Translations under genes and position numbers: made by a program | Notes under the pieces: generated by a model | What the model saw: only the letters and a program-made list of their open reading frames with translations | What the model was told of the DNA's origin: nothing | Database searches by the model: none | In this document: positions 1 to 11,430 of the stretch, piece after piece | Layout: every line of letters begins with the position of its first letter | How positions within the stretch are numbered: position 1 is the stretch's first letter | From: Paenarthrobacter nitroguajacolicus JCM 14115 | GTDB taxonomy: Bacteria; Actinomycetota; Actinomycetes; Actinomycetales; Micrococcaceae | NCBI GenBank assembly: GCA_001313365.1 | Contig: BBFS01000093.1 | Location: 1 to 19,656 of the forward strand | DNA length: 19,656 bases | Direction of reading: 5' to 3'

Positions 1-23
1 CCCCAACCCCCAGGATCTTCCCC

Positions 24-1660
24 ATGACATTTCCCAGCCCCCCACCTGTCCCGCCGCCAAATGCTGGCCGCAAGTGCCGCCGTCGTGGTCGCCTTCTCCG
101 CCGCGTCCTGCACTCAAGCGGAAAGCCCGACGCCGGTTCCCACCCCGGCGGTCCGGCACCTACCCCTTCAGATCCGTGGCGGCCCGTTGCGCACCTCACC
201 GCTGAGAAGAACTGGCTCAACGATCCCAACGGCCTCGTCTACCACGACGGCACCTACCACGCCTTTTACCAGTACAACCCGCAGGCAACTCGTGGGGGGG
301 CAACATGTCCTGGGGGGGCACTCCACCAGCAAGGATCTGGTGCATTGGGAGCAGCAGCCCGTGGCCATGGAGGCGAGCCCCGAAGAGGAAATCTTCTCCG
401 GCTGCATTGTGATGGATAAGAACAATGCCTCCGGTCTTGGCTCGGCGGAAACCCCCCCACCATGGTGGCCCTCTACACCAGCGCCTATGGCAAGAACGGC
501 GCTCTGCCTCAAGGCTCCCAGGCACAATCAGTCGCGTTCAGCCTGGACAACGGGACCACGTGGCAGAAGTATCAGGCAACCCGGTCCTGAACCTTGCACC
601 CACCAACAACAACTTCCGCGACCCGAAAATCACCTGGTACGAACCCGGCCGATACTGGGTGATGACCACCGTGGTTGCCGACGCCAGGTAGTCAAGCTGT
701 TCAAGTCCACAGACCTCCTCCGCTGGGAATACCTGAGTGATTTCTCCGGTGTCGGCGCCCAAGGAGGCCTGTGGGAGGTGCCGGAACTCCTCCACATGGA
801 CGTGGAGGACTCCACGGCAAAGAAGTGGGTCATGCTGCTGAGCATCAACCCCCGGCGGCATTGCGGGCGGCTCGGGTATGCAGTACTTCGTGGGCGAATT
901 CGATGGAAGGCGCTTTACGGCGGAAAACGCGGCAGCCCCCCCGGCGCCCCGCTCACCGAATCCCAATGGCTGGACCACGGCGCAGACTACTATGCCGCCA
1001 ACTCCATCTCCGGCGCGCCCGGGGGGGACAAGCCCGTTCTCCTGGGATGGATGGGCAACTGGGACTACGCCAGGATGTGCCACCACCCCGTGGCGCGGCT
1101 CCATGGCTATTCCCCCCCGCGAACTGACTTTGGTTCGGGGGGGCGAAACGGCTTGAGCTCCGGTCTGCCGTAGCCGGCGCGGCGCGGGAAACGCTGGACC
1201 GCTCCGGTGAAGTGAAGAGCAAAAACCTCACCGTTGGCTCCTCGCTCCAGGACCTTGGCCAGGAGTTCCGGGGGGACGTACCCAGCTGATCGAACTGGAC
1301 ATGGACCTGAAGTCGGCGCGCGAAGCCGGTGTTCTCCTCCGCCACTCATCCTCCGCTTCCGAGACAGGATTGCGGATCTCCTATAACAAGGAAACAGGCA
1401 GTGTCAGGGTGGACCGGTCACAGGCCGGAACCAGCAACTTCTCCGGAAAGTTCAGCCCATTCCATGAAGTAGCCCTGCCGTCCCCAGGCAGCAAGGTCCA
1501 TCTCACGATCCTCCTCGATTCGTCCTCGGTGGAAGTCTTCGCGGCGGGTGGAACTGCGGTGATTTCGGATACGTTCTTCCCGGACTGGGACAACACAGGG
1601 TCCTCGGCGTTCAGCATGGAAGGCGACACGGACTTCACCGTCACGACACGCGGTCTTTAA
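24..1660 (+). CDS. GH32 fructan/sucrose hydrolase (levanase/invertase type), Tat-type lipoprotein; frame broken
   Basis: A secreted glycoside hydrolase family 32 enzyme that hydrolyses beta-fructosides (levan, inulin or sucrose). The three family motifs are visible: WLNDPNG with the nucleophile Asp (codon 222-224), FRDPK (614-628) and EVPEL with the acid/base Glu (codon 775-777). The C-terminal beta-sandwich region reads cleanly at 1301-1660. If one C is removed from the C run near 37-42, the ATG at 24 leads into [17 protein letters not shown], a twin-arginine motif, then a hydrophobic stretch ending SAASC, a plausible lipobox. The frame changes at least seven times (near 40, 150, 285, 315, 455, 580, 685 and beyond), yet conserved protein continues on each side, so these look like consensus errors. 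Expected length is about 540 residues. Levanase versus invertase cannot be settled from sequence alone. Confidence 0.85.
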
Positions 1661-1663
1661 AGG

Positions 1664-1679
1664 CCCGCCCTAGGGCGGG
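1664..1679 (+). terminator. Hairpin after GH32 gene
   Basis: CCCGCCC and GGGCGGG form a perfect 7-bp stem around a TA centre, four bases after the TAA stop. No clear T run follows, so this is a probable rather than classical intrinsic terminator. Confidence 0.5.
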
Positions 1680-1763
1680 ATCTCACCCTTTACAACCGCT
1701 CTTGAGGACGAGATCCAACTCCTCGTTGCCCGGGAAGCGCCCATTGAGGATAGTTTTGTCCCT

Positions 1764-3516
1764 ATGACATCCAGCGATGCCGCATTTGAACAGCTGCTCA
1801 CCGACGCCCGCCAATGGGCTTCCCAAGACCCGGACCCGGCGACGTCGGCTGCTCTCATTGAGTTGGCCGGGCTTGCCAGCGGCGGTGATGCGGGAGCAGC
1901 CCAGGAACTGGGCGACAGCTTCAACGGCACCCTGCAATTCGGCACAGCCGGCCTCCGCGCAGCGCTCGGCCCGGGCCCCAACCGAATGAACCGCGTTGTT
2001 GTCCGCCGTGCAGCTGCAGGCCTGGCGGCCTTCCTCACCGAATCGGTAGCCGCAGCTGCGCCGGGAACCCGGCCGCGCGCCGTCGTCGGCTTCGATGCCC
2101 GGTATAACTCGGACATCTTCGCCCAGGAAACCGCTGCAATCTTTACGGCAGCGGGCATTGAGACCTTCCTGATGCCGGCAGCGCTTCCGACGCCGTTGCT
2201 TGCCTATGCGGTCAGGTCACTCGATTGCGACGGCGGTGTTATGGTCACAGCGAGCCACAACCCGCCGCAGGACAACGGTTACAAGGTCTACCTGGGACGC
2301 CATGCAGTATCTGAGAGCGGGCGCGGGTCTCAAATCGTGGCGCCGTACGACGCTGAGATCGCCGCGAAGATCGAGGGCGTGGGGGGGCGCTGGATTCCAT
2401 TGAACTCGCAGAAAACGGCTGGACAGTGCTGCCCACGTCCGTCGCCGCAGAATATGAAGCTGCGATGGCGGGACTGGTGGATAGGGAACACTTCCCGGCA
2501 CGGGACCTCAAGATCGTCCTGACGCCCATGCACGGTGTCGGCGGTGAAACGGCCGTCTCAGTCCTGAACGCCGCCGGTTTCGCCGATGTCACGCTCGTGG
2601 CCGAACAGGCCGAGCCGGATCCGGACTTCCCCACCGTCGCTTTCCCTAACCCGGAAGAGCCCGGGGGGCACTGGACCTGGCCCTTGCCGCTGCTGCGGAC
2701 TCGGATGCGGACATCGTTTTGGCCAACGACCCCCGACGCCGATCGGGCTGCGGTTGCCGCATTGGATCCCGCCACGGGAAGCTGGCGGATGCTTCGCGGT
2801 GACGAAGTGGGGGGGGCGCTGCTTGGTGCGCACGTAGTAGCGCGAATGGCTGCCGGTGCCGGGGACGAGCCGCAGACCGGAGTGTTCGCCAACTCGATCG
2901 TGTCCTCCCGGCTGCTCTCACGCATCGCTGCCGCAGCGGGTTACGCCCACGAGGAAACACTCACCGGCTTCAAATGGATTTCACGGGTTCCCGGCCTCAC
3001 CTACGGGTACGAGGAAGCACTGGGATACTGTGTGGCGCCTGACCTGGTGCGCGACAAGGACGGCATTTCAGCGGCTGTGCTGATCGCCGAACTCGCCGCA
3101 ACTGCCAAGCCGAAGGCAAGACGATCTTCGACACCCTCGATGACCTGTATCTGGTGCACGGACTGCATGCGAGCGACCAACTCAGTATCCGGGTGGCCGA
3201 TTTGGGACTGCTCGATGCCATGATGAACCGCCTGCGGGTCAACCCGCCGGAAGCGTTCGGAGGCTCCGCCGTCGAGGTTTCAACCGATCTCGCGGAAGGA
3301 AGCGAAGCCCTGCCTCCCACGGACGGCCTGCTGTACCTGACCCGGGACCAGAGTCGTGTCATCATCCGTCCCAGTGGCACCGAGCCCAAGCTCAAGTGCT
3401 ACCTGGAAGTCATCCAGGCCGTGGAAACCGCGGCGGAACTTCCCGCAGCACGCCAGGCAGCGTGGACGTCCCTGGATGATGTTCTCAGGGACGTCCGCGA
3501 AGCCTTGGGCTTATAG
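1764..3516 (+). CDS. Phosphoglucomutase/phosphomannomutase (alpha-D-phosphohexomutase family); frame broken
   Basis: A cytosolic phosphohexomutase that moves phosphate between C1 and C6 of a hexose. The active-site serine loop TASHNPP is at 2247-2267 (Ser codon 2253-2255), the metal loop DPDADR at about 2728-2746, a YGYEEALGY sugar-recognition segment near 3004-3030, and the phosphate-binding loop RPSGTEPK near 3367-3390. The N-terminal FGTAGLR segment is typical of the large bacterial (about 570-residue) members. The frame breaks near 2383 (run of seven G), between about 2665 and 2732 (run of six G, then five C where DPDADR needs four) and near 3110 (one missing G in AKAEGKT). Each break is flanked by conserved sequence. 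It converges on nirD with a five-base gap. Substrate (glucose or mannose phosphate) cannot be assigned. Confidence 0.88.
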
Positions 3517-3521
3517 GACTC

Positions 3522-3883
3522 CTAGAGTTCAACCTCGATGAAGCCGTCCACCAAACGGGTGGCGAACGCGTCGAGCTTGAGTTCCGGGTTGGTGAAGCAT
3601 TCACCGGTTTCGAGGTCGTAGACTCTTTGTGCAGCGGCGACGCGATGGTCGGCCGGCTTCCCCGGGATCCAATAATCCCGCGGGCCATAACGTTGGCGAG
3701 CGTCGCCGGGTCCTGCTGTGCCACAGCGAAGACCTCTGTGGGCGCTGTGCGGAACAGCGCAACCTGACGGCCGGCGATCAACGCAGCCTCGCCCCAAGCC
3801 AGTTCGAGTTCGTCCACCGGGCAAACACGGTGCCATGTGGCGGTTGTGGTCAGGTCCTCGGCACGGTCCAGAATTACGGTCAT
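3522..3883 (-). CDS. nirD: Nitrite reductase (NADH) small subunit NirD; one frame break
   Basis: The small, Rieske-fold subunit of assimilatory NADH nitrite reductase, partner of NirB. It reads MTVILDRAEDL, then CPVDELELAWGEAALIAG, QDPATLANVMARGIIG, ASPLHKE, and VYDLETGECFTNPEL. The QDP, RGI and SPLHK blocks are characteristic of NirD, which keeps the Rieske fold but lacks the CxH iron-sulfur ligands, as here. Length is about 120 residues, usual for the family. I chose the ATG at 3883 because GAGAGG lies seven bases upstream; an in-frame GTG at 3898 is the alternative. One G appears to be missing in the codon after HKE (near 3622). It is on the strand opposite nirB, whereas the two genes usually form one operon, and shares its upstream region with nirB. 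Confidence 0.88.
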
Positions 3884-4035
3884 TTCAGCCCCTCTCACTG
3901 TGTCCGGGTGTTGGCTTTTCCACCGTCACTCCCCCCCGGACCGGGCCACACTTGCGGCCACTACTCCAAACTAGGACCCGGGTGTTTCATCGGTTGTCCG
4001 CGTTTGTGTCGAACGCGTAAAAGAGACCTCACACC

Positions 4036-4054
4036 TCACGAAATGCGTTCGTGA
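4036..4054. promoter_or_regulatory. 19-bp palindrome TCACGAA-N5-TTCGTGA upstream of nirB
   Basis: TCACGAA (4036-4042) and TTCGTGA (4048-4054) are exact inverted repeats around ATGCG. A third copy of TCACGAA is at 4069-4075, 33 bases (three helical turns) downstream of the first. It overlaps the GlnR-type series. It could be the site of a second regulator, for example the NnaR-like protein encoded at 7863-9032, but that link is inference. Confidence 0.5.
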
Positions 4055-4099
4055 TGCAGAAGTTAAGATCACGAAACAAAAGGGAAACTGAAGCGAAAC
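4040..4099 (+). promoter_or_regulatory. Phased series of GlnR-type half sites between nirD and nirB
   Basis: GAAAC occurs at 4073-4077, 4084-4088 and 4095-4099, each separated by exactly six bases, and GTTAA lies one period upstream at 4062-4066. Continuing upstream at the same 11-base step are GTGAT (4051) and GAAAT (4040). GlnR of actinobacteria binds gTnAC-n6-GaAAC pairs, also written AC-n9-AC, which is the spacing seen here. The four downstream sites are convincing; the two upstream ones are weaker. nirB is a known GlnR target in Streptomyces and mycobacteria. Confidence 0.72.
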
Positions 4100-4115
4100 T
4101 GCCCGTCCCTAGGCT
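4088..4115 (+). promoter_or_regulatory. Candidate nirB promoter
   Basis: CTGAAG (4088-4093), a poor -35, is 16 bases from TAGGCT (4110-4115), a fair actinobacterial -10 of the TANNNT type. The -35 sits inside the last GlnR half sites, the arrangement expected for an activator-dependent promoter. It would give a leader of roughly 45 bases before the nirB start. Confidence 0.3.
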
Positions 4116-4166
4116 GGAACCACAAGTTGCGGAGATCCGTCTGCAACATCTGCGAAAGGCCCACCA

Positions 4167-6804
4167 GTGACCGGACACACTTCAAGTACAGAGAACCCGC
4201 GCCGCATCGTCGTCGTCGGCGGCGGCCCCGCTGCCCACCGTTTCGCCGACGCCATGTTCAATCGCGGACTTGAAGGTTGGCAGGTTACGGTGCTGACCGA
4301 AGAGGCACACCTCCCGTACGACCGCGTTGCGCTGAGCAAGGCCCTCACGGAAACCGGCGTGGACCTCACCTTGGGCGATGCATCCATGTGGGACCACGAA
4401 GCCCTGACTTTGGTCACCGGCGAGCGCGCCGTGAAGATCGACTCCGTGGCCAAGAGCGTCCTCACCGCCGCCGGCAACAAGTACGAATACGACCACCTGG
4501 TAGTGGCTTCGGGTTCCGACGCAGCCCGGCTCCCCCCCATCCCCCCCGGTTCCGAGCACACCCACGTTTACCGCACCCTCGAGGACGTCTGGGCCATTAA
4601 CAAGGCCATCGCCGAGCTGCGCGAGAAGCTCGGCCGCAAAGTCAACGCGGTCACCATCGGTGGTGGCTTGCTTGGACTTGAGTCCGCTGCCGGCACCGAA
4701 CAGCTGGGCGCCACACCGATCGTCATCAACGGCGCACCGTGGCTGATGAACACCCAGCTGGATGAGGGTGCCGGCCAGGCGCTCGGCCGCCTGATTGAGG
4801 CCAAGGGCTTCGAAGTCCACGGTGGCGTCTTCCCTTCCGAGGTAGTCACGGACGACGACGGCAACGTCACCGGTGTCCTGATGGCTGACGGCCGGACCAT
4901 CGACGCGGACCTCGTAATCGTGGCTATCGGCGTGAAGCCCGGGACGACCTCTTCCGCGCGGCAGAAGGCGAAGAGCAGCTGTTTAGCCTGGGCCAGCGCG
5001 GCGGCGTTGTCATCAATGATTTCTGCGCCACGGAAGTGGATGGCATCTGGCGATCGGCGAAGTGGCCAACTTCGAGGGCATGTGCCTGGGCCTCGTGGCT
5101 CCGGCCAACACCATGGCCGAGATCGTTGCTGACCGCCTGCATGGTGGAGAAGCAACCTTCCCGGGCTTTGACACTGCCACCAAGCTCAAGTTGTCCGGCG
5201 TTGACGTTGCCAGCTTCGGCGACGCGTTTGCCCGCACCGAGCACTCCCTGGAGATCGTCTACGCCGACCCCGCGCGTGGCGTCTACCAGAAAATTGTCAC
5301 CACAGATGATGCCAAGACCCTCCTGGGTGGCATCTTCGTGGGCGATGCTTCCCCGTACATGAGCCTCCGCCCGCTTCTGGGCCGCGAACTGTCCGCCGAA
5401 CCGGGTGCCTACCTGAGCGCTGCCGGAGGTGGCGAGGCCCCTGAAACCGAACTTCCGGACGACGCCATCCTGTGCTCCTGCAACAACGTGGCCGCCGGAA
5501 CTATCCGTGACACCATCAACGGCTGCGGTGCCTGCGAGGGCAACTCCCCCCCGGTGCAGGAGCTCGGCGAGCTGAAGGGCTGCACCAGGGCGGGCACCCA
5601 GTGTGGTTCGTGCGTTCCCATGCTCAAGAAGCTCCTTGAAGGCGAACTGAAGAAGTCCGGCATTGAGGTCTCCAAGGCACTGTGTGAGCACATCAGCCTT
5701 TCCCGGCAGGAACTCTTCGATGCCATCCGCGTCCTTGAGCTCACGTCCTTCGAAGACATCATGGCCAAGTACGGCACCGGAGCGGGCTGCGATATCTGCA
5801 AGCCGACCATTGCTCCATCCTGGCCAGCCAGCACTCCGCCTACGTTCTGGATGCCGGACGTGGTGCGCTGCAGGACACCAACGACCGCGCCTTGGCGAAC
5901 ATGCAGAAGGACGGCACCTATTCGGTGGTCCCCCCGCATCGCTGGTGGCGAGATCACGCCAAAGGGTCTCGGCGTCATCGCGGCTGTAGCGGAGAAGTAC
6001 AACCTGTATACGAAGATCACGGGTGGCCAGCGCATCGATATGTTCGGTGCCCGCCTGGAGCAGCTGCCGGACATATGGAAGGAACTGGTGGACGCCGGCT
6101 TCGAATCAGGACAGGCCTACGGCAAGAGCCTTCGCACCGTGAAGTCCTGCGTTGGTTCTACATGGTGCCGCTTCGGTGTGCAGGACTCGGTGGCAATGGC
6201 CATCGCCTTGGAGCTGCGCTACCGCGGCCTCCGCAGCCCCCACAAGCTGAAAATGGGTGTCTCCGGCTGCGCCCGTGAATGTGCCGAAGCCCGTGGCAAG
6301 GATGTTGGCGTGATCGCCACGGCCGACGGTTGGAACCTGTACGTAGGCGGTAACGGTGGCGCCACCCCGGCGCACGCCCAGCTGCTGGCCAAGGACCTGG
6401 ACGACGAAACCCTCCTGAAGTACATCGACCGTTACCTCATGTACTACATCCGCACCGCTGACCGCCTCCAGCGCACCGCGCGCTGGCAGGAAGAGCTCGA
6501 CGGCGGAATCAAGCACGTCGAGGAAGTAGTGGTCAACGACTCCTTGGGCATTGCCGACGAGCTTGAAGCCGCCATGGCCAAGCACATCGACACCTACGAG
6601 GACGAGTGGGCCGAGACCCTGAAGGACCCGGAGCGCCTCCGCCGTTTCCGTTCGTTCGTCAACGCTCCCAACCAGAAGGACGAATCCATTTCCTTTGTTC
6701 CGGAGCGCGGCCAGATCCGTCCGGCCACCAACGAGGAAAAGGGCGGCGTGCTCATCGCTTCCACTATCCCGGTCCGCAGCGAAACCGTCGGCGTAGAAAA
6801 CTAG
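4167..6804 (+). CDS. nirB: Nitrite reductase (NADH) large subunit NirB; frame broken
   Basis: The siroheme-containing large subunit that reduces nitrite to ammonium with NADH. In order: an FAD/NAD domain (VVVGGGPAAHRF at the start, VTIGGGLLGLES in the middle), a C-terminal reductase segment, a BFD-like [2Fe-2S] domain (CSC at 5473-5481, then GCTRAGTQCGSC), the ferredoxin-like half domain (NLYTKITGGQRIDMFG), and the siroheme/4Fe-4S cysteines CVGSTWC (6148-6168) and CAREC (6268-6282). The start is GTG 4167, with GAAAGG seven bases upstream. About 875 residues, normal for NirB. Frame changes near 4940, 5049, 5812 and 5931 look like single-base errors. Three seven-C runs (near 4531, 4541, 5546) stay in frame but each adds a proline inside conserved sequence. 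The next gene starts nine bases after the stop. Confidence 0.93.
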
Positions 6805-6813
6805 GGGTTCACC

Positions 6814-7850
6814 ATGCAGCTCACCATTGATCTCACCGGCCGCGACGTCCTTGTCACGGGGATCTGAAAAGTCTGCCCGCCAGGCGGTCCGCCGATACCA
6901 GAGCGCCGGTGCCAACGTGTACCGGCTGAGCGCCCCGGAAGGTGTGCCGGGCGACGGCCAACTTCCCGAGCGCCCTTTCCTGGTGGCGGTAGTGGACGAC
7001 GGCGGGTCCGGCTGGCTGCCGCTGGTGGAACGGTGCCGCGACGCCGGGATTCCCGTAGCCTTCGAGCCTGCACCCGGCGCCGAAGGCCAGGTGACCCTGG
7101 TGGGTGGAGGCCCGGGAGCCTGGATCTGCTCACGGTGGGTGCTGTGGACGCCCTGCGCGATGCCGATGTGGTGTTCTACGATCGGCTTGCTCCCTATCAG
7201 GAACTGGCTGATCTGACCTCTGCGGAGCTCGTAGACGTTGGAAAGCAGCCCGGGCTTCACAAGGTGACTCAGAGGGACATCGAGAAATTGATGGTGGAGG
7301 CTGCACTGCTGGGCAAGAACGTGGTCAGGCTCAAGGGCGGCGATCCGTACGTGTTTGGCCGCGGCGGAGAAGAAGTGGCTGCGTGTGTTGCTGCCGGCGT
7401 CCCGGTGAGGGTCATCTCCGGTGTCACCAGTGCCATTTCCGTTCCCGCTGCAGCCGGAATCCCGGTGACGCACCGCGAGGTCAGCCACATGTTCACCGTG
7501 GTATCCGGCCATGCCCCGTTGACGGAGAAGGAACACACCCACCTTGCCGGACTTGGCGGGACTATCGTGGTCCTCATGGGCATCGGCACCCTGCCCCCCC
7601 AGCTGGCGGCCGGGCTCCGCCGAGCGGGGATGAATTCGGACATGCCAATGGCCGTGGTGAACGTGGGTACCGCCCGGGACAGCGCACCACCATCGCTGAC
7701 CTCGGTACCATCGAAACGGCAGCCACCGGCTGCAGCAACCCGGCCGTGTTGGTCATTGGCGAGGTGGTCCGGGTTGCTGAAGCCAACCGGAATCATGCCG
7801 AAGCATCCGCTGAACTGAGCCGACTCGCGGCTTCGCTCCTTGAAGCCTGA
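6814..7850 (+). CDS. cobA: Uroporphyrinogen-III C-methyltransferase (SUMT) with short Rossmann-like N-terminus; frame broken
   Basis: Methylates uroporphyrinogen III twice with S-adenosylmethionine to give precorrin-2, the first step towards the siroheme cofactor of NirB. SUMT motifs are clear: VTLVGGGPG, DVVFYDRL, VRLKGGDPYVFGRGGEE, ISGVTSAISVPAAAGIPVTHR, VVSGHAP and VVLMGIGTLP. About 85 residues precede this domain (DLTGRDVLVTG, then KSARQAVRRYQSAGANVYRL), resembling the start of the CysG dehydrogenase domain but too short to be complete. Frame breaks occur near 6860 (one extra G), 7113 (one base missing in GGGPGSLDLL) and 7668 (one G missing in VVERGYRPGQ). A seven-C run at 7594 adds one proline in frame. 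Nine bases after nirB and 12 before the next gene, so almost surely cotranscribed. Confidence 0.88.
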
Positions 7851-7862
7851 AGGTAAGAACAC

Positions 7863-9032
7863 ATGACTGTTGCACGTGCCATCGAAGTCCAGGACGCTAC
7901 TGCAGCGCCGGAAGTTGCCGAAGCTGTAGAAGCGCCGTTGGACGGATTCCGCATTGGCGTCACCTCGCACCGCCGCTCCCGCGACCTCATTGAGGCACTG
8001 GAGCGCCGCGGTGCGAGCGTGTTGCACGCGCCCGCCCTGAAGATCGCCCCGGTGCAGGAGGACATGGTCCTCATCGAGGACACCCGCACCATCATCGAGG
8101 CCAAGCCGGACATCTGCATCGCCACCACCGCCTACGGCATGCGCCGCTGGTGTGAGGCCGCTGATTCCTTTGGCATCGGCGAGCAACTGCTGGACACGCT
8201 GTCCGCCTGCCGCATGTTCGTCCGTGGCCCCCCCAAAGCCCGCGGTGCCGTTCGGGCGGCCGGCCTTGCCGACGTCGGAATCAGCAGTGACGAAACCACC
8301 GCCACGCTGGTGGACATGCTCCTGGCCGAAGGCGTGCGCGGCAAGACCGTGGCCGTCCAGTTGCACGGCTACACGGACGTCCGCCAGCTGGAACGGCTGC
8401 GTATGTCCGGAGCTACTGTCTTGACGGTGACTCCGTACCGCTGGGTGAAGCCCGACGGCGAAGACAAACTGCCGCGCCTGATCGAAGCCGTGGTCAGCGG
8501 AAACCTCGATGTCCTGACGTTCACCAGCGCCCCCCCGGCAGTGGACGCCATGTGGAGCACCGCACATGAAATGGGGCTGTACCGCCCGCTCATCGAAGCT
8601 CTCAAGGGCCCGGTAACCGTTGCGGCCGTCGGTCCGGTCACCGCTCAACCGCTGGTCGACGCCGGGCTCACCCCCCCGTTGATCCCTGATCGTTACCGCA
8701 TGGGTGCGCTCATCAGGCTGGTTACCGAACATCTTTCGCTGAACCACGTGCGGCGCTTGGAAACCAAGAGCGCCACCATCGAGCTCCGTGGACGCTGCCT
8801 GCGGATCAACGGTGAGGTGGTGGACCTTGCACCGGCTCCCCCCCTCCTGCTGCTGCGGGCGCTGCTCGGCGCGGGTGGGGCTGTCCTGTCCAGGGAAGCT
8901 CTCTCCGACCTGCTGGACCTGCGCGGTTCCGTACACGCTTTGGACATGACGGTCAGCAGGCTCAGGTCTTCCCTTCCTGATGGCAAACTTGTGGAAACCG
9001 TAGTGAAGCGCGGCTACCGGCTGCGGGCTTAG
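7863..9032 (+). CDS. nnaR: NnaR-like nitrite-assimilation regulator: HemD-like domain fused to winged helix
   Basis: Residues about 25-290 form a uroporphyrinogen-III synthase-like domain (VTSHRRSRDLIEALERRGA, VRGPPKARGAVRAAGL, TVAQPL-type ending). Residues about 295-389 form an OmpR-type winged helix that ends in the typical wing LVETVVKRGYRLR. This architecture is that of NnaR of Streptomyces and Mycobacterium smegmatis, a GlnR co-activator of nitrate/nitrite genes, and of mycobacterial Rv0260c. Here it follows nirB and the siroheme methyltransferase, which supports the same role; residual synthase activity is uncertain. The ATG at 7863 follows AAGG at a suitable distance, 12 bases after the previous stop. 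The frame is open throughout, but seven-C runs near 8229, 8530, 8671 and 8839 each seem to add one proline (for example RGPPKARG instead of RGPKARG). Confidence 0.88.
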   Translation: MTVARAIEVQDATAAPEVAEAVEAPLDGFRIGVTSHRRSRDLIEALERRGASVLHAPALKIAPVQEDMVLIEDTRTIIEAKPDICIATTAYGMRRWCEAADSFGIGEQLLDTLSACRMFVRGPPKARGAVRAAGLADVGISSDETTATLVDMLLAEGVRGKTVAVQLHGYTDVRQLERLRMSGATVLTVTPYRWVKPDGEDKLPRLIEAVVSGNLDVLTFTSAPPAVDAMWSTAHEMGLYRPLIEALKGPVTVAAVGPVTAQPLVDAGLTPPLIPDRYRMGALIRLVTEHLSLNHVRRLETKSATIELRGRCLRINGEVVDLAPAPPLLLLRALLGAGGAVLSREALSDLLDLRGSVHALDMTVSRLRSSLPDGKLVETVVKRGYRLRA

Positions 9033-9296
9033 GTGTGAATGTTGGCGATAAACGGCGGTCTTTTGCGGAGCTAGATGTCGCCCTGCTGGTCCCCCCCAAG
9101 CACTCCTGACCGCCTGTAGAACGTCGCTCGGGACACCTCGGGATCAGGCGGAGTCGAACTTTTCTCCGTCGAACTCATCATTGTCACGGGTTCTCTGTCG
9201 TAGGAGACTTGAGGCGACGGCATTCCATCTTGGACCGCCCGCGGGGGCCACCCGGCTGCGGGGCCTCACAGCACCTTGTAGCGGCCTGGTGGATCA
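9033..9296. other. Intergenic stretch without a clear gene
   Basis: I see no conserved protein, RNA gene or strong hairpin in these 264 bases. The only coding-like item is the 36-residue reading frame on the minus strand at 9071-9181, listed separately. A seven-C run occurs at 9091. Confidence 0.5.
9071..9181 (-). CDS. Very short unassigned ORF, possible transposase or recombinase remnant
   Basis: A 36-residue frame starting MMSSTEKSSTPPDPEVSRAT and continuing FYRRSGVLGG before a TAG. The SRATFYRR segment looks like a helix-turn-helix recognition helix, and the TPPDPEV lead-in resembles the N-termini of some actinobacterial transposases. There is no good ribosome-binding site (the upstream bases are ACCCGTGACA). 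It may be a decayed fragment or chance. Confidence 0.2.
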   Translation of the reverse strand: MMSSTEKSSTPPDPEVSRATFYRRSGVLGGDQQGDI

Positions 9297-10088
9297 ATGA
9301 GTTCCATGACACCCCCCCGAAAAGGCCGCTCGGCGGTCGCGCCATCTCTTGCCCTTGGTGACTATCGCACTGATTGGATGCCTCGGTGGGTGCGAGTATG
9401 CATCTAAAGACGCCTCCCTGCCGTCATCCAGTTCTCCGATTACGGAGGCTCGCACGGACCCACCGCTGCCGGAGAGTCGCGACAATCGCAAGGTCCACCC
9501 GCTGCCGAGAGTGGCGATATCGATGCCGGCACCTACCTGGTCCCCGTCGCCGGCTACAAGGAGCCTTTCCAGATCACCGTCCCAGGCGGCTGGTCTGCTC
9601 TCGACGGCAACAGCCTGGGCAAGGACGACCCGGATCACCCGGCTGAATGGGCCGTCTACCTGACTCTTTCACGCGCGTACTATGTGGCGATGGACGCATG
9701 CACCTGGCGGGGGGCGCCCTTGCCGATTCCGGTCCGTCGGCCAAGGCATTCGTTGACGCGATGGCGGCGCAGTCGTCAACGGCAAGCACCCCCTCCCGCC
9801 AAGGTCATGGTAGGCAATTACTCCGGCTTCGAGTTCGACCACTCCATCGAGGACAACGTGGACATCACAGCCTGCAACGGCAGCGGGCTATGCATCCACT
9901 CAGAAGACACACAACGCTGCTCAAGCGGGTACGTAAATCAGAATCAACACGAAACCTACCGGGTGGTCGACCTGAACGGCAAGCGGGCTGTCGCCGCGGT
10001 GGGCCATATCGACGAATCGATCAATCCGGAGCTGATGAGAGAGGCACGCACTGTCTTCGACTCGATCGTGTTCGAGTCCGACAAATGA
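9297..10088 (+). CDS. Small lipoprotein of unknown function; frame broken
   Basis: Not recognised. The start region reads MSSMTPPEKAARRSRH, then LLPLVTIALIGCLGGC, a basic n-region, hydrophobic core and LGGC lipobox, so the protein is probably lipid-anchored on the outer face of the membrane. A Ser/Pro-rich linker follows, then a domain with GTYLVPVAGYKEPFQITVPG and GW, MDACTWRG, ALADSGPSAKAFVDAMAAQ and a C-terminal part from VMVGNYSGFEF to VFDSIVFESDK with several cysteines (TACNGSGLC, RCSSG). About 260 residues. The frame changes at the seven-C run near 9311, in the linker near 9380-9480, at the six-G run near 9710 and at the C run near 9790. ATG 9297 or ATG 9306 could be the start. It converges with the umuC gene. 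Confidence 0.6.
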
Positions 10089-10102
10089 CCAGCTGAACCG
10101 AT

Positions 10103-10116
10103 GGGCGATCCCGCCC
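10103..10116. terminator. Small hairpin between converging genes
   Basis: GGGCG-ATCC-CGCCC, a 5-bp GC stem, sits in the 37-base gap between the lipoprotein stop and the umuC stop. It could end transcription from both sides, but it lacks a T run. Confidence 0.35.
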
Positions 10117-10125
10117 GCTGACACG

Positions 10126-11430
10126 CTAGGCCGCCTTCACCAGGGGAAGCTCGTCCCAGTTGGTGGTGTAGCGGGGGCTGAGCATGTCGCGTTTCATGGA
10201 CCAGTCCGGGCCGCCTTTGATGCCCGCATGGCCCAAACCGATGGAGCCACGGCCATAGCGCTTGCTGACCTGCTCGAGCAAGGGGCTATGCCCCCGTTCT
10301 TCATGCCGGTTCTCGAAGATTTCCAGCGGTTTCTGGTTGCCGCTGGGTCGGAGGTCCGTGACCATGATTCCAGCTTTGGCGTACCTCACCCCTTCCTGGA
10401 TTTTTGGAACCAGCGCGTGCGCGGCCTTGGTCAGCAACACCGGATCCGAGGTGGGCATTGGCAGCTTGACGTTGACAGTGGGGGGAACGATTTGTCGTTT
10501 GGGTTGTAGACCGATGTTGCGGCAAAGGCAGTCAGCAGCTTGGCTTGCAGGTCATGCTTGGCCAGCCTGGCACTGGCCATCTGGCCATAGACACTCAGTA
10601 CCTGCCGCAGCTCGGCTGCTGAGGTTATTGGTGTGGAGAAGGACCGGGAGAAGATCAGTTGATCCCGTCCGATCCGTTCCTCCTCCATGGGGATGCAGGG
10701 GGTGCCTTGCAGTTCCAGCACAGTCCGCATCATGACGATGGAGAACTTGTCCCGCAATGCCACGGGGGTCGGCACGGACCAGGTCCAGGATGGAGAAGAT
10801 CCCCCATCGCGTTCAGGCGTTTCGTGAGCCTGGTGGCGACGCCCCAGATTTCGATCACGGAGAGCCGTGCCATGAGTGCTTCGCGTTGGGGGGCTCCGGG
10901 ATGGAGTCCCACCGGCACACGCCATTGAAGGCCGGGTTGTGCTTTGCCCACTTGTTGGCCAGCTTGGCAAGCGTCTTGGTGCGCGCGATTCCTACGCAAA
11001 CGGGAACCCCCACGTGTCGTTGGCAGGCAGCTTTGATGGTGCGCCCTAGCTCCAGCAGATCCTCGGGTTGCCCTTTGACTCCGAGGAACGCTTCATCAAT
11101 GGAGTACACCTCCTGCCATGCTGAGTACCGGGCCAGGAGCTCCATCACCCGCGAGCTGATGTCTCCATACAGTTCATAGTTGCTTGAGAGTGCAATGAGT
11201 CCCCATTCCTTGGCGCGTGGAGCAAGCTTGAACCAAGGCTCGCCGAGTCCGATTCCCAGTCTTTTGGCCTCCGGCGATCTGGTCACAGCGCAGCCGTCGT
11301 TGTTGGACAGGACGATCAGCGGCTTGCCCTCCAACGCAGGATTGAAGGCACGTTCTGCCGACGCATAGAAGCAGTTGATATCCACGTGGGCGATCTCCTG
11401 CATGCGATGCATGAGCGCTGGCTTGGACAT
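10126..11430 (-). CDS. umuC: Y-family DNA polymerase, UmuC type; frame broken
   Basis: Error-prone translesion polymerase of the UmuC branch. The catalytic region is seen in HVDINCFYASAERAFNP (first Asp) and YSIDEAF (second acidic pair). KPLIVLSNNDGCAVTRSPEAK is characteristic of UmuC, and the C-terminus GIKGGPDWSMKRDMLSPRYT, continuing TNWDELPLVKA, matches the small DUF4113 tail of this group. ATG 11430 is preceded by AAGGAG at four bases. Breaks near 10892, 10801, 10765 and 10482 coincide with C/G runs that are one or two bases longer than the protein requires (for example IPEPQREALMARLS). About 430 residues. No umuD neighbour is visible: the upstream gene is a transporter ending before a strong terminator. 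A LexA box lies upstream, so it is probably an SOS gene transcribed alone. Confidence 0.9.

Follow-up and report, generated by a model that had tools for sequence, protein, structure and literature searches.

The closest described systems are the operators of the nitrogen regulator GlnR and the promoters at which it acts together with a second regulator, NnaR. The GlnR a-b-a-b operator has the form gTnAc-n6-GaAAc-n6-GtnAC-n6-GAAAc (Tiffert 2008, as cited in PMC10704036), and in the GlnR complex four sites are occupied head to tail by four DNA-binding domains, while the receiver domains form a bridge to the polymerase (PMC10704036). The motif published for NnaR of M. smegmatis is ctCAC[a/c]-N16-[t/g]GTGag; most NnaR targets have a GlnR motif near the NnaR motif at similar spacing, and EMSA at nirB has been published for both proteins (PMC6277429). 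Co-activation by NnaR and GlnR is already known (PMC6277429), and so are divergent gene pairs under GlnR control, six of which have been described in M. smegmatis (PMC3662644). In the accessible accounts, the way in which NnaR assists GlnR seems unsettled: the two cooperate on DNA, yet their association was weak by pull-down and absent by two-hybrid (PMC6277429). In Arthrobacter sp. M7-15, nirBD was higher on nitrate than on ammonium, with GlnR named as a possible regulator (PMC12010642). The literature searched (including PMC6277429, PMC10704036, PMC3662644, PMC11162112, PMC12010642, PMC6988585 and PMC12830290, in the parts accessible) contained neither a mirror-image, two-armed NnaR-GlnR geometry nor an account of NnaR in Arthrobacter, a limited negative result as subscription literature lay mostly outside its scope.

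Here, we describe the region between nirD and nirB in the window, that is, the whole stretch of 19,656 nucleotides from Paenarthrobacter nitroguajacolicus that was analysed. The arrangement and conservation of its sites point with good confidence to a bidirectional, mirror-symmetric NnaR-GlnR operator for the divergent nirD and nirB promoters, with a central NnaR dimer and outward GlnR arrays, by which two nitrogen regulators probably switch on both halves of nitrite reductase together in Arthrobacter-group soil bacteria.

Genomic context

Among the genomes compared, the nearest to the window was G001, and the closest named match was Arthrobacter sp. M2012083 (L031). The genes around the control region are as follows:

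3485..3898, minus strand: nirD, nitrite reductase small subunit (Rieske_2 match; the ortholog L031:5357-5734 is NirD, TIGR02378)
4167..6804, plus strand: nirB, nitrite reductase large subunit (Pfam; the ortholog L031:6001-8631 is NirB, TIGR02374)
7033..7818, plus strand, as nirB: partial uroporphyrinogen-III methyltransferase of the siroheme branch (TP_methylase; L031 ortholog TIGR01469)
7863..9032, plus strand: NnaR-like regulator with a HemD-like and an OmpR-type DNA-binding domain (HEM4 and Trans_reg_C)

The reading frame of nirD is broken in the window, and the open frame of nirB is broken near 5060-5130. Aligned with L031, window positions 1-10968 showed 60 gap openings over 10.9 kb. Many of these were 1-2 bases long and lay within genes, and the frames of PGM, nirD and nirB were split; this looks like uncorrected sequencing error. 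None of the gap openings fell inside 3968-4115.

In L031, a uroporphyrinogen-III methyltransferase gene and then the NnaR-like gene lie close behind nirB. The order nirB-cobA-nnaR, in which the NnaR-like gene is the third in the row, was found in 75 of the 80 named loci; the exceptions were L063 and L100, without cobA or nnaR within the fetched 12.8 kb, and the short loci L071, L083 and L110. A divergent nirD was present in all named loci (79/80) except L108, where none was found and the locus begins 243 bases before the match. The claim of the original prediction that the control region is common to divergent nirD and nirB is borne out. In the nirB leader, a possible short inverted repeat, GTTGC...GCAAC, was observed at 4121-4160, just 5' of the likely ribosome site; in many relatives the repeat reads GCAGA...TCTGC. 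A search of Rfam returned nothing at gathering scores.

Parts of the proposed operator and their conservation

Loci L001-L110 and the window were aligned and 16 duplicate rows removed, which left 95 distinct rows; the analysis of the nirD side and of the mirror used 94 rows, L108 being too short. It should be noted that the row counts below are not independent, because the rows are related. The parts of the operator are:

3968..3973, minus strand: putative nirD -10 box TAGTTT (TANNNT)
3984..3988, minus strand: GlnR-type half site GAAAC, in 91/94 rows, 15 bp upstream of the nirD -10 box, start to start
3995..3999, minus strand: weak third half site of the nirD arm, variable in the 94 rows, most commonly TGCAC or CGCAC
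4006..4010, minus strand: GlnR-type half site GACAC, in 90/94 rows
4017..4021, minus strand: GlnR-type half site TTTAC, in 93/94 rows
4028..4032, minus strand: left half of the NnaR palindrome, CTCAC on the plus and GTGAG on the minus strand (CT[CA]AC in 95/95 rows, CTCAC in 80/95)
4040..4043, plus strand: GAAA, exact centre of the NnaR palindrome (GAAA[TC] in 92/95 rows)
4051..4055, plus strand: right half of the NnaR palindrome, GTGAT, in 95/95 rows
4062..4066, plus strand: GlnR-type half site a1, GTTAA, in 95/95 rows
4073..4077, plus strand: GlnR-type half site b1, GAAAC, in 95/95 rows
4084..4088, plus strand: GlnR-type half site GAAAC of the second pair, in 94/95 rows
4095..4099, plus strand: GlnR-type half site GAAAC of the second pair (GAAAC in 87/95 rows, GAAAT in 8), 15 bp upstream of the nirB -10 box, start to start
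4110..4115, plus strand: putative nirB -10 box TAGGCT (TANNNT), in 95/95 rows

Toward nirB, GAAAT at 4040, GTGAT at 4051, GTTAA at 4062 and GAAAC at 4073, 4084 and 4095 follow one another in exact 11-bp steps in the window. These had been predicted as six 5-bp GlnR half sites in strict 11-bp phase, and the phase at 4040-4099 proved to be conserved and beyond chance: GAAAC-N6-GAAAC-N6-GAAAC occurred once in the window and in none of 200 dinucleotide shuffles, and 27 of 31 genomes of the genus had it, each in a single copy except G023 with two. Conservation in related genomes had been proposed as a check, and both the phasing and the GAAAC copies are conserved among the 95 distinct rows. With regard to GlnR itself, four of the six sites are GlnR-like, whereas GTGAT is the right half and GAAAT the centre of the NnaR motif; GAAAT at 4040 is unlikely to be a GlnR site because of this central position. 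GnnAC-type sites with 6-bp gaps, as in a GlnR operator, are present, GTTAA deviating at the last base, and all of the GlnR-type sites (GTTAA, three GAAAC, TTTAC, GACAC and the nirD-side GAAAC) have A at position 4, as does the weak nirD site in 54/95 rows. The distance from the operator to the nirB start differs among relatives, while the inner spacing of the operator is constant. One turn of the DNA helix takes ~10.5 bp, so sites in 11-bp steps drift slowly round the helix and their placing on one face is approximate.

The published NnaR motif could be recognized as CTCACA-N16-CGTGAT at 4028-4055, with an exact core CTCAC-N18-GTGA (4028-4054). The window departs from it at the flanking [t/g], which is C, and at the last g, which is T, the plus-strand half being GTGAT as against the published GTGAG. 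The core in the form CTMAC-N18-GTGA occurred only once in the window, and at least once in 45 of 200 window shuffles; taken alone this match is weak, and it is conservation that carries the argument.

Another palindrome had been predicted, TCACGAA-N5-TTCGTGA, and it was confirmed at 4036-4054; a further TCACGAA, the third copy, lies at 4069-4075. None of 200 shuffles contained the palindrome. Among the 95 distinct rows, 2 had it whole, 4 had its left arm and 72 its right arm, and 59 had the third TCACGAA; the palindrome was rejected as a separate operator.

The original prediction covered the nirB half only, and the whole feature spans 3968-4115: a mirror-image array at identical spacing, absent from that prediction, points toward nirD. 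On the minus strand, GTGAG (79/94 rows; GTTAG in 15/94), TTTAC, GACAC, the weak site and GAAAC follow at 11-bp steps, and then the -10-like box. In each arm, the NnaR half and the -10-like box are 59 bp apart (4051 to 4110; 4032 to 3973), and the last GAAAC lies 15 bp from the box. When mirror centres between 3985 and 4075 were tested in half steps, 4041.5 was the best, with 20 of 33 conserved pairs complementary (next 11), and it also gave the highest correlation of conservation. Both -10-like boxes were in exact register in 93/94 rows. The exception was L100, in which the nirD box fails; it appears to be a natural variant with 17 bp extra between the arms, and an extra GTGAT-N6-GTTAA copy was observed there. 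In G052:C1, the arms are 36 bases apart instead of 19.

Test of the geometry

The arm score was built after the Arthrobacter arms had been seen, and the period and the -10 distance were therefore left free on regions outside the genus; the half-site weights of this grid search were our own and followed the published GlnR consensus. With a period of 11 and a distance of 15, the mean z was 4.63 for the 60 nirB regions outside the genus (next best 2.14) and 3.51 for the 31 nirD regions (next best 2.63); every other period remained below 1. Among regions with a good array, GTGA was found exactly 11 bp upstream of it in 18 of 41 nirB and 16 of 19 nirD regions, and at other distances from 5 to 30 bp once in each set. 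In the 80 named loci (1.97 million positions, both strands), all 141 arm scores of at least 21 fell no further than 400 bases from the nirB start; with the threshold lowered to 20, there were 153 inside the nirD-nirB gap versus 15 outside.

In 45 of the 74 named loci longer than 12 kb (L055:10995-11060, L106, L091 and others), a GlnR-like array that is likewise 15 bp from a TANNNT was also observed after nnaR. In sampled loci it adjoins a different palindrome, for example GTTACCGGCCGGTAAA. The genes downstream of it in L055, L106 and L091 look alike, and one such gene, when searched, resembled the N-terminus of NirB below its cut-off.

Distribution in the genus, order and class

Within the genus, the composite-promoter pattern had matches in 56 of 61 genomes and none in the reversed control, and 38 of the 56 showed it in both orientations. 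The full pattern gave no sign of a wider regulon in the 61 genomes: among the matches listed, all look like nirB or nirD arms by sequence. Second places in G023, G044, G046, G052 and G055 carry another version of the pattern, and a second divergent nirB-nirD copy with the mirror operator kept was observed in L224 (G052:C5) and L225 (G044:C80). A search of six genomes with the NnaR palindrome plus TNA gave 12 matches, 6 of them at nirB, against 10 in the reversed control; the other six had neither NirB nor NirD in the fetched 3 kb.

A strict search with the NirB N-terminus matched 8 of 149 genomes of the order and 4 of 197 of the class and was then widened, which gave matches in 129 of 396 genomes of the order. 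We examined 65 of these 129 (L143-L146, L203-L223 and 40 more chosen down the list for spread); with four further loci the total was 69, 60 of them outside the genus, L141 and L142 being in neither count. Three loci (L203, L205 and L207) share an identical 111-bp block with rows of the first set. Forty of the 69 were divergent and 29 were without NirD in the fetched DNA. The best nirB and nirD arms, picked independently, lay 17-20 bp apart in 28 of the 40 divergent loci (the distance in the window being 19 bp), some of which were weak (for example, L144, whose nirD side is without TANNNT), and in 19 of the 31 outside the genus. The third position of the nirD arm was often weak in other families too. 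No mirror was found in 12 of the 40 divergent loci (L208, L209, L210, L214, L218, L228, L231, L232, L235, L237, L243 and L252). Four of these, L231, L232, L235 and L237 (genus g36, same family), have divergent nirD and nirB without a recognisable arm, and the operator system may therefore have been lost or replaced in that genus.

The single-arm set comprised 35 nirB upstream regions at 34 distinct places (L150 is the same as L248), with 32 rows lacking a divergent nirD in the fetched DNA. A four-site arm was the best fit, with z>3, in 17 of the 35 regions, at least one of which (L239) looks spurious, and had z>6 in 13; no arm with z>3 was found in 15 of the 35. At the class level, a looser pattern gave 56 listed matches in 49 of 246 genomes and 9 matches in the reversed control, and 55 of the 56 were analysed after removal of one of two overlapping G449 rows. 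The last site was at offset 43 in 17 of the 55, 16 of them in two families, under a pattern whose maximum of 43 could not reach 44; a strict 11-bp step is thus not universal. Two matches in one genus (L171 and L172) were upstream of NarK-family genes, with scores of 316 and 303 bits where the cut-off is 311.7.

Candidate regulators and proposed mechanism

Among 14 Trans_reg_C matches in G001, a GlnR-like protein (L177) had its best PDB match in 8hih, with 255 bits over nearly the full length. This entry, titled just 'Transcriptional regulatory protein', is what we take to be the GlnR complex. The same protein scored 97 bits against RegX3, 83 against MtrA and 78 against PhoP, and 91 bits over the receiver domain against 4o1h, an entry named GlnR. 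A GlnR ortholog is present in this nearest genome, and the gene at 7863-9032 of the window and its L031 ortholog have the domain make-up of NnaR; the NCBIfam name of the L031 protein is uroporphyrinogen-III synthase PRK07239, not NnaR. For the predicted meeting of two regulators, a GlnR-like protein (in G001) and an NnaR-like protein (in the window) exist; the TCACGAA palindrome on which it was placed is not conserved.

On the basis of these results, we propose that an NnaR dimer would occupy the central palindrome CTCAC-N18-GTGA, and that GlnR protomers would line up head to tail on each side on the 11-bp direct repeats in phase with the NnaR half site, on GTTAA/GAAAC/GAAAC/GAAAC toward nirB and on TTTAC/GACAC/weak/GAAAC toward nirD. 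The outermost GlnR protomer, at the -35 region and 15 bp (start to start) upstream of TANNNT, would recruit RNA polymerase. Low nitrogen, through GlnR, and a nitrate/nitrite-linked signal, through NnaR, could then switch on both subunits together, and nnaR, as the third gene in the nirB row, might provide positive feedback. The cooperative loading of GlnR suggested originally fits the published head-to-tail complex of four protomers. The length of the series, taken at the time as unusual for GlnR, is not so by itself, because four-site operators and a three-box amtB promoter have already been published (PMC10704036).

Alternative explanations

The alternative that survives best, with a little less than an even chance, is that two independent promoters share one NnaR palindrome and that their arms do not cooperate. 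The mirror symmetry would then arise because each arm needs the same geometry, and the shared palindrome alone would suffice for it. In agreement with this explanation, single arms of the same geometry precede nirB in loci whose fetched DNA showed no divergent nirD, among them L241, L255 and L261, and in L209 and L214 both arms score well, yet lie far apart; nothing observed here speaks decisively against it.

It seems unlikely that the array serves chiefly as an operator for MtrA, or that MtrA represses at ample nitrogen until GlnR displaces it, although this would be compatible with the NnaR-GlnR operator. MtrA and GlnR have nearly identical motifs and DNA-binding domains, and MtrA binds mycobacterial nirB (PMC6277429); it competes for GlnR sites, and deletion of mtrA in S. 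coelicolor overexpresses nirB in nitrogen-rich medium (PMC6988585). Recognition of GlnR sites, or of sites that overlap them, has been described for MtrA, PhoP and AfsQ1 (PMC6277429, PMC6988585). However, the array is coupled at exactly 11 bp to the NnaR half and at 15 bp to the -10 box, which looks like the layout of an activator; MtrA on the same sites would still be compatible with it.

Finally, the originally predicted filament of GlnR on all six sites, with an unrelated second regulator on the TCACGAA palindrome, is very improbable: all six sites are in phase, GAAA[TC] at 4040 is well kept and GTGAC-like sequences are GlnR sites in some promoters (PMC6988585), but GTGAT and CT[CA]AC fit the NnaR motif at its published spacing in every row, GAAA sits at the mirror centre and that palindrome is rarely whole.

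The mirror-symmetric NnaR-GlnR operator might be extended further, and we offer this only tentatively. The NnaR dimer could be a symmetric hub that nucleates two outward GlnR chains and places polymerase on both promoters from one complex, with a fixed NirB:NirD ratio, NnaR end-capping a mixed head-to-tail filament of OmpR-family proteins; the design could be general in actinobacteria, one-armed nirB and narK promoters being half of the two-armed form. The fixed 11-bp step from the NnaR half to the GlnR chain suggests a testable answer as to how NnaR helps GlnR, namely that neighbouring OmpR-type domains stack on DNA, and the mirror form has an internal control because both arms share one NnaR site. 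It also offers a possible way for an enzyme to keep its two subunits co-expressed although their genes lie on opposite strands.

Comparison with known systems

In pho box promoters of the PhoB type, 11-bp direct repeats read by an OmpR-family protein replace the -35 element, ~10 bp upstream of the -10 box. The nirD-nirB region is alike in having 11-bp repeats, putatively read by OmpR-family proteins, at -35, and differs in regulator and regulon. It shares with the described GlnR a-b-a-b operators a series of four 5-bp half sites at 11-bp intervals, upstream of nitrogen genes including nirB; in contrast to the available description of those, the sites here keep phase with an NnaR palindrome and occur as two mirror-image sets, and the first is GTTAA rather than GTnAC and the third GAAAC rather than GtnAC. 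The nirD arm with its weak third site resembles the nas promoter of A. mediterranei (a1-b1-b2, with a2 dispensable), whereas the second, mirrored arm and the NnaR site of the present region are not mentioned in the accessible part of that account (PMC10704036). Compared with the co-regulated NnaR-GlnR promoters (nirB, narK and nasA of S. coelicolor; nirB, narK and trHbN of M. smegmatis), the region differs in its mirror two-promoter form and its 11/15/59-bp rule, neither of which the accessible text of that report describes, and agrees with them in that an NnaR palindrome adjoins a GlnR box, the spacing between the two being fairly conserved, and that the start site, here predicted, is downstream of the GlnR motif (PMC6277429).
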